DNA from: an uncultured SAR116 cluster alpha proteobacterium
GTDB lineage: Bacteria; Pseudomonadota; Alphaproteobacteria; Puniceispirillales; Marisalimonadaceae
Length of the DNA stretch: 64,000 nt
Direction of reading: 5' to 3'
Assembly: GCA_902618195.1 (NCBI GenBank)
Contig: CACMZO010000002.1
Coordinates: 1-64,000, forward strand
In this document: piece after piece, positions 9,170 through 11,376 of the stretch
How the letters are laid out: the number at the start of each line of letters is the position of its first letter
Position numbering within the stretch: the first letter of the stretch is position 1
Program-made: the position numbers and the translations under genes
Notes under the pieces: generated by a model
Told to the model about the DNA's origin: nothing
The model's database searches: none
Seen by the model: only the letters and a program-made list of their open reading frames with translations

Positions 9170-10498
9170 TTATTTAACAATCAAAAGTTGATTCCAATTA
9201 GTCGTGTATGATTTGGATTTGAAATGAGATTTCATATTCCATTTACTTTTGTTCTTTTTTGATTTTAATAATCCTTGAGATCCATAAAATAAAGTTTTTG
9301 AACCCATTTTATTATTAATATAATCTAGCATTATCATTCGTTTGTTTGATAATATATCATCTTTTTTATTTTTATTAAATAAACTACCCTGAATAGTATA
9401 ATCCTCTGATTTATAAAAAGAGCTAGTTTCATTTAAATTGATTTCTAGACTTTTAATGTTTAAGTCAAGTAGCGTAACCCCAATTTTTTTATAACTAAAT
9501 CCCAACCGATAAATTTTTTCTAATATTCCAAATCCACCTTGGATCAAATCAGGTGTGTTATTTGTGGGCTCATCAAAGTTTATTACTCCAGAGTTACTGT
9601 ATTGTGATTCACTTTTTTTAAACTTGTTTGTATTAATAAAAACACATAAAGAACTGCATAAACCTCTTTGTAATCGAAGTTTTTCAGCTGCTCTAAAAAT
9701 ATGGTTTGATAATGCTTCTTTTAAACTTTGTAAATCAGTTACTGTTTCTCCAAATGAACGCGAAACCGTGATAGATTTTTTAGAATGAACTTGTTCTAAA
9801 TCTAAAGCTGAAATACCTCTTAATTCATACACTATTCTTTTCCCGACAACAGAAATATGTCGTTTTATGTGATTGGGATTAGCTCTCTGCAATTGCAAGG
9901 CATTATTTATACCAATTTTTTTCAATCTATTTGCCCAACCTTTTGATATTCCCCAGATTGTTTCAAGTTCTAAATCATTTAATACTTGAGTAATTTGATT
10001 TGAATCTTGAAGGTTATAAACTCCTTCATTTACATATTTTTTTGCTATTCTGTTAGCTAATTTTGCTAACGTTTTAGTTGGTCCTATTCCCACAGAAACG
10101 GGTATACCTGTCCATTGATATATTTTTTTTTTCATAAAAATCATTTTTTTATAAATATTATTTTTATTAAATCCATCTAGACCTAAAAAAGCTTCATCTA
10201 TAGAGTAGACCTCAACGTCTGGTGTGAAGTGATAAAAAGAGTTCATTACTCTAGAAGACATATCTCCATACAAAGTGTAATTAGATGAATAAACTATTAC
10301 CCTATTTTTTTTGATTAAATCTTTCCATAAATGCAGTGGTGCACCCATAGGAATACCCAGAGCTTTAGCTTCATTTGATCTGGCTATGATACATCCATCA
10401 TTATTTGATAAAACAACAACAGGTTTATTATTAATAAGTGGATTAAAAACCCTTTCACAGGATACATAGAAATTATTACAATCAACTAATGCATACAA
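9170..10498 (-). CDS. umuC: Y-family DNA polymerase V catalytic subunit UmuC
   Basis: 442 aa; ALVDCNNFYVSCERVFNP, VEVYSIDEAFL, putative beta-clamp-binding motif QGSLF, UmuC C-terminal domain; follows umuD. Confidence 0.95.
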   Translation of the reverse strand: MYALVDCNNFYVSCERVFNPLINNKPVVVLSNNDGCIIARSNEAKALGIPMGAPLHLWKDLIKKNRVIVYSSNYTLYGDMSSRVMNSFYHFTPDVEVYSIDEAFLGLDGFNKNNIYKKMIFMKKKIYQWTGIPVSVGIGPTKTLAKLANRIAKKYVNEGVYNLQDSNQITQVLNDLELETIWGISKGWANRLKKIGINNALQLQRANPNHIKRHISVVGKRIVYELRGISALDLEQVHSKKSITVSRSFGETVTDLQSLKEALSNHIFRAAEKLRLQRGLCSSLCVFINTNKFKKSESQYSNSGVINFDEPTNNTPDLIQGGFGILEKIYRLGFSYKKIGVTLLDLNIKSLEINLNETSSFYKSEDYTIQGSLFNKNKKDDILSNKRMIMLDYINNKMGSKTLFYGSQGLLKSKKNKSKWNMKSHFKSKSYTTNWNQLLIVK

Positions 10499-10512: not shown

Positions 10513-11022
10513 TTAGTAAACAGAATGAATAGCTGTAACAACTACTCCCCAAATTTCAATGTTCATATCTTCTTTTATCTCAATTGGTTTATATAAAGTA
10601 TTCTCTGGCATTAAAATTAATTTTCCAGATTCCTTATATAGCCTTTTAACGGTCATGTGACCATCAACTACAGCAATAACTATTTTGCCATGTGAAGGTT
10701 TTAAACTTCTATCTACTATCAATATATCATTATCATTAATTCCAGCGCCGATCATAGAATCTCCAGTAACACGAACAAAAAAAGTTGCGGCTGGATGTTT
10801 AACTAAATGGCTATTTAAATCTAAATTTCTTTCTAAATGATCATCTGCAGGTGAAGGAAACCCCGCAGATATTTTACAACTATACAAGGGTAATTCTGAA
10901 TCTAAATGAACTACTTCATCTTTCAAAAAATTAGGTAAATCAAATATTTTAACACTATCTTGAGGTGAATAATGTCCATTTAAAATTAATATCTCTTTTG
11001 TTTTTTCTATACTTTCAATCAT
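10513..11022 (-). CDS. umuD: UmuD-like LexA-family autoprotease
   Basis: 169 aa; AGFPSPADD cleavage region, VTGDSM (Ser), DGHMTVKRL (Lys). Confidence 0.93.
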   Translation of the reverse strand: MIESIEKTKEILILNGHYSPQDSVKIFDLPNFLKDEVVHLDSELPLYSCKISAGFPSPADDHLERNLDLNSHLVKHPAATFFVRVTGDSMIGAGINDNDILIVDRSLKPSHGKIVIAVVDGHMTVKRLYKESGKLILMPENTLYKPIEIKEDMNIEIWGVVVTAIHSVY

Positions 11023-11035
11023 TTAATTCCTCTTT

Positions 11036-11050
11036 GTTCATGTTTTGTTC
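11036..11050 (-). promoter_or_regulatory. Putative LexA (SOS) box, direct-repeat type GTTC-N7-GTTC
   Basis: Plus strand GTTCATGTTTTGTTC, 13 nt upstream of the umuD start codon; matches the alphaproteobacterial LexA consensus. Confidence 0.75.
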
Positions 11051-11109
11051 TATTTATACATAAAAAAAGATGATTGAAAAGTTTTTTCAACAGTAATTAA
11101 AAAAAAATA

Positions 11110-11376
11110 TTAAGATTTTTTATATTTATCTATTAATGACTCTAGATCATGGTCAACATTTTCGTCATAACCATGTTTTGATGAAAAAAATGCTAAGGCC
11201 ATTAGACCTGAGCCAATAATAAAAGACATAACAATGCAAATTATAATAGCGAAAAATCCGTGATTGCTAATACTTATAAAATCCCAATTAAACCATAGTT
11301 TAATAGCAAAATATAATACAAGAAATAATACTGCTAAAAAAATAGATATAATTATCTTATTTTTGGTAAAAAACAT
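11110..11376 (-). CDS. Small two-TM membrane protein of unknown function
   Basis: 88 aa; two hydrophobic segments and a charged C-terminus; fills the gap between two same-strand genes. Confidence 0.7.
   Translation of the reverse strand: MFFTKNKIIISIFLAVLFLVLYFAIKLWFNWDFISISNHGFFAIIICIVMSFIIGSGLMALAFFSSKHGYDENVDHDLESLIDKYKKS

Follow-up and report, generated by a model that had tools for sequence, protein, structure and literature searches.

A umuDC operon of a SAR116 alphaproteobacterium, probably LexA-repressed at a GAAC-N7-GAAC site near the umuD start

The umuDC locus and its products

The window, by which we mean the whole 64,000-nucleotide stretch of DNA that was analysed, belongs to a SAR116 assembly of 1.24 Mb that is 60.7% complete, implying a full genome of about 2.0 Mb. 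The original prediction for this DNA had spoken of a compact genome, a description that needs softening, as a genome of the implied size is not extremely compact. Four features make up the locus, all read on the minus strand.

9170..10498, minus strand: umuC, 442 aa, with a TTG start 14 nt past the umuD stop (NCBIfam NF002955, Pfam, alignment to E. coli)
10513..11022, minus strand: umuD, 169 aa, with its ATG at 11022 (NCBIfam NF007621, Peptidase_S24, alignment to E. coli UmuD)
11036..11050, minus strand: predicted LexA operator (SOS box), GAACAAAACATGAAC in gene direction, a GAAC-N7-GAAC direct repeat
11051..11058, minus strand: A+T-rich TATAAATA, immediately upstream of the box and conserved in the genus, possibly a -10 region

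The range originally singled out, 10513-11050, spans only the box and umuD, with umuC (9170-10498) outside it. Within that range, the GTTC-N7-GTTC repeat and its stated position upstream of umuD were confirmed in the sequence: the plus strand reads GTTCATGTTTTGTTC at 11036-11050, which becomes GAACAAAACATGAAC in the umuD direction, and the gap between box and ATG is exactly 13 nt. A sigma-70 scan of the umuD upstream DNA in the window returned no convincing hexamer pair. Directly upstream of umuDC (window 11110-11376) lies a gene for a membrane protein of 88 aa that matches no Pfam family, a homologue of which occupies the equivalent place in many sister-genus genomes.

UmuD scored 168.4 bits against NF007621, the NCBIfam model of the autoproteolytic subunit of DNA polymerase V (cut-off 110), carries a Pfam Peptidase_S24 domain, and has E. 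coli UmuD and UmuD' as its closest solved structures. The cleavage-region, serine and lysine motifs that had been read from the sequence alone are all present (SAGFPSP, GDSM and TVKRL), and they hold residue by residue, with A53-G54, S89 and K126 aligning with C24-G25, S60 and K97 of E. coli UmuD. The N-terminal arm (window 10864-11022) is 53 aa long, compared with 24 in E. coli, and contains an NGHY motif that is conserved family-wide. In an AlphaFold model built on a shallow alignment of 28 sequences, the arm is predicted as one low-confidence helix (residues 2-14), with the remainder disordered. This long, lineage-specific arm is mildly new.

For UmuC, the best model was NF002955 (UmuC, NCBIfam) at 371.7 bits, below that model's cut-off of 431, with DNA polymerase IV models far behind, at 147 bits or less. 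The Pfam domains IMS, IMS_C and DUF4113 were all above cut-off, and D6 and the acids of SIDEAF align with E. coli UmuC, the catalytic acids being kept. Further, QGSLF, earlier put forward as a plausible beta-clamp motif, falls exactly opposite the E. coli clamp motif QLNLF in the alignment.

UmuDC is patchily distributed among bacteria and often mobile, and the nearest UmuD outside SAR116 shows about 58-68% identity in the part that matched, as might be expected had the operon been acquired horizontally in recent times and brought its own SOS box with it. We regard such an acquisition as very improbable. In a UmuC phylogeny, an analysis that the original prediction had proposed, the genus and its sister genus form a fully supported clade (100/99), adjoined at weak support (93/63) by a third SAR116 lineage (L042). 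The 88-aa membrane protein gene is the neighbour of umuD in two genera, and recA and lexA of this lineage carry the box as a native feature. Vertical inheritance of umuDC within SAR116 is favoured by these comparisons. One contig labelled Verrucomicrobiales (L025, NYVP01000149.1) carries a SAR116 umuD locus, with a UmuD 99% identical and an identical box; it is probably mis-binned.

lexA and its genomic neighbourhood

A search for lexA in the 60.7%-complete source assembly did not find it, the sole match to a LexA model being UmuD. The absence of lexA from the genome had been named at the outset as a result that would speak against SOS control; literally, this is what the assembly shows, but the entire moaC-moeA-lexA-gltX stretch is missing with it, and congeners have that stretch. 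Specifically, lexA is present in 7 of the 13 genus genomes, in the gene order moaC-moeA-lexA-gltX, and lacking in the source assembly and 5 of its 12 congeners. The congener LexA has DNA-binding and protease domains above the Pfam cut-offs and keeps the AAG cleavage site, the serine (GDSM or GESM) and the lysine (TLKRFRK).

One explanation for this distribution is that lexA has been lost in the species and that another factor binds the boxes, for example the long-armed UmuD itself, in the manner of Acinetobacter UmuDAb, a relative of UmuD whose N-terminus is extended and which serves as a repressor where LexA is absent (PMC11332147). That precedent, the 53-aa arm (24 in E. coli) and the six genomes without lexA speak for such a loss, which we nonetheless consider very improbable. 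Completeness in the six genomes is 54-74%, and what they miss extends beyond lexA to moaC, moeA, gltX and about 9 kb of flanking DNA; summed completeness alone predicts about 4 absences among 13, with 6 seen. The UmuC tree mixes genomes that have lexA with genomes that do not (L027, L028 and L029 without it among L023, L024, L026 and L033 with it), and congeners with near-identical umuDC (UmuD 99% identical) have an intact lexA as well. In addition, the box agrees with the class-wide LexA motif, and no helix-turn-helix was predicted in the UmuD N-terminus in the AlphaFold model from the 28-sequence alignment, where the arm appears as a low-confidence helix followed by disorder. A UmuDAb-like repressor role for UmuD is thus unsupported by the predicted fold, and loss of lexA was rejected, as its whole neighbourhood is missing alongside it. 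Because the moaC-moeA-lexA-gltX stretch is absent as a unit and congeners have it, an assembly gap is most likely the reason for the missing lexA, and is far likelier than loss.

The operator at umuD, recA and lexA

The original prediction rested in part on an exact match to the eight defined bases of the motif. By chance, 0.81 bare GTTC-N7-GTTC matches are expected in a shuffled window, and 57 of 100 shuffles contained one or more; genome-wide the pattern occurs 8 times compared with 23 for the reversed control, so that a match to the bare motif proves nothing alone. Of these 8 sites, the promoter regions of umuD and recA account for two; the other 6 are inside open reading frames, and none of them, when checked for position, precedes a repair gene.

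The extended site behaves differently from the bare motif. The 15-mer GAACAAAAYRTGAAC (gene direction) has 54 exact matches in 58 family genomes, with 0 for the reversed control. Where the surroundings of its matches in other genera were read, umuD was directly downstream in 30 of 30 cases, and within the genus, the remaining matches sit where umuD or recA is located. Two further matches (G025 and G019) were fetched, and both precede umuD, such that every site traced stands in front of umuD or recA. At umuD, the exact 15-mer is found in 11 close SAR116 loci and in the distant SAR116 genome AG-899-J15 (L042), with one substitution in L034. Judged by this conservation, the umuD LexA box is clearly real: the extended site is kept, and it is kept in position. 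A chance match, which would leave umuDC constitutive or otherwise regulated and which the 0.81 bare matches expected per window might seem to invite, is scarcely credible given that the box is identical to the letter and in the same position across genera, that its extended form has no reversed-control match in 58 genomes and that recA and lexA carry the same boxes. In one umuD upstream region (L202, G024), the box recurs with a period of 11 bp (GAACAAAATATGAACAAAATATGAACAAAATATG), so that two exact sites overlap.

Boxes upstream of recA and lexA, which the original prediction had suggested looking for, were found at both genes. In the source assembly, recA is present with two boxes, GAACAAAATGTGAAC and GAACAAAACATGAAT, 29 bp apart. 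The pair (G000:C10:19594-19637; L005 1472-1515) flanks the recA -35 element, with the second box located between TTGACT and TATTAT, which are separated by a 17-bp spacer. All 30 SAR116 recA loci read have the double operator at a spacing of 28-29 bp, and this fixed arrangement is mildly new. For lexA, the evidence comes from congeners only, where a single box, GAACAAAAGGTGAAT, abuts the lexA ATG in 7 of 7; an exact GAAC-N7-GAAC is also found at lexA in three sister genera.

The extent of the regulon was assessed by pattern searches, with matches to GAACAAAANNNGAAY assigned by gene positions. Across 13 genomes there were 59 such matches, 45 of them at lexA, recA or umuD, and the other 14 did not exceed the 21 of the reversed control. 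Strong boxes therefore appear to be confined to three transcription units, lexA, recA and umuDC, a pattern that is mildly new, and weaker sites may exist elsewhere. A near-match upstream of a cold-shock gene (L127) has two mismatches and was judged to be chance.

The DNA upstream of these boxes has a regularity of its own. At lexA (L103-L108, L119) and umuD (L200-L231), TTGACT almost always stands exactly 25 bp before the box. A TATA-like element at these two genes follows only about 12 nt downstream of TTGACT, a distance shorter than the standard sigma-70 spacer.

The SAR116 circuit relative to known SOS systems

Our results, comprising the two genes with their catalytic and cleavage residues and clamp motif, the conserved box, its counterparts at recA and lexA and the intact LexA of congeners, support reading the locus as the umuDC (DNA polymerase V) operon of a SAR116 alphaproteobacterium, repressed by LexA at a GAAC-N7-GAAC operator near the umuD start (probability roughly 0.94). 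Counting against it are the lack of lexA in the assembly, the unenriched bare motif and the UmuC score below the NF002955 cut-off. The proposal of an SOS-controlled polymerase V under an alphaproteobacterial LexA box thus gains support from the recA and lexA boxes and from conservation, and what it describes is the canonical alphaproteobacterial LexA/RecA/polymerase V circuit, a sound but ordinary result.

By analogy with the known families, from which we infer LexA binding, induction, cleavage and mutagenesis, a class-typical LexA would repress umuDC at the direct-repeat operator. DNA damage would lead to RecA filaments and these to LexA self-cleavage, lifting repression of lexA, recA and umuDC. 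The same filaments would also trigger self-cleavage of UmuD at A53-G54, yielding UmuD'2C, which would perform translesion synthesis through a beta-clamp contact at QGSLF.

More tentatively, and with the odds rather against it, the SAR116 SOS response could be a stripped-down one. Under this proposal, the only strong operators would be those of umuDC, of lexA and, always as a pair, of recA; damage would raise recombination and mutagenesis, with excision repair outside LexA control, and the lineage-specific UmuD arm would tune cleavage or partner choice.

The LexA/polymerase V circuit agrees in its main features with the LexA/RecA regulon of Alphaproteobacteria such as Caulobacter crescentus. 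GTTC-N7-GTTC is the LexA motif of the class in the literature (PMC3323433; PMC12700426), and the two systems share this direct repeat, the boxes at recA and lexA, and an error-prone polymerase within the SOS regulon (PMC12700426; PMC3323433). They differ in that the SOS mutagenesis operon of Caulobacter is imuABC, whereas that of SAR116 is umuDC, and in that the Caulobacter regulon comprises 47 genes (PMC12700426), whereas strong SAR116 boxes were seen only at lexA, recA and umuDC. Relative to E. coli umuDC, the order umuD-umuC, the self-cleavage site, the Ser/Lys dyad, the Y-family catalytic acids and the clamp motif at its homologous position are all alike, but the SAR116 UmuD arm is longer (53 aa, compared with 24), umuC starts with TTG, and the operator is the direct repeat GAAC-N7-GAAC rather than the palindrome CTGT-N8-ACAG. 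Acinetobacter UmuDAb is likewise a UmuD relative and has an extended N-terminus (PMC11332147), but no helix-turn-helix is predicted in the SAR116 protein, and congeners of the SAR116 bacterium have the class LexA with its own box.

A search of the literature on LexA together with SAR116 found nothing relevant. The comparison shows an intact mutagenesis circuit, probably an inducible one, in a largely uncultured marine group, and supplies an exact, testable operator sequence for SAR116; the general understanding of the SOS response is unchanged by the umuDC finding.

Long arms of another kind occur in other UmuD proteins, from Legionella and further Alpha- and Gammaproteobacteria, where the motif is GG(K/A)RxGAGRPxGxxxYGExTKxxRVP (loci L035-L039, L044, L050, L051, L056, L059, L060, L070-L072, L074, L078 and L083). 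This arm resembles a small DNA-binding element joined to UmuD.
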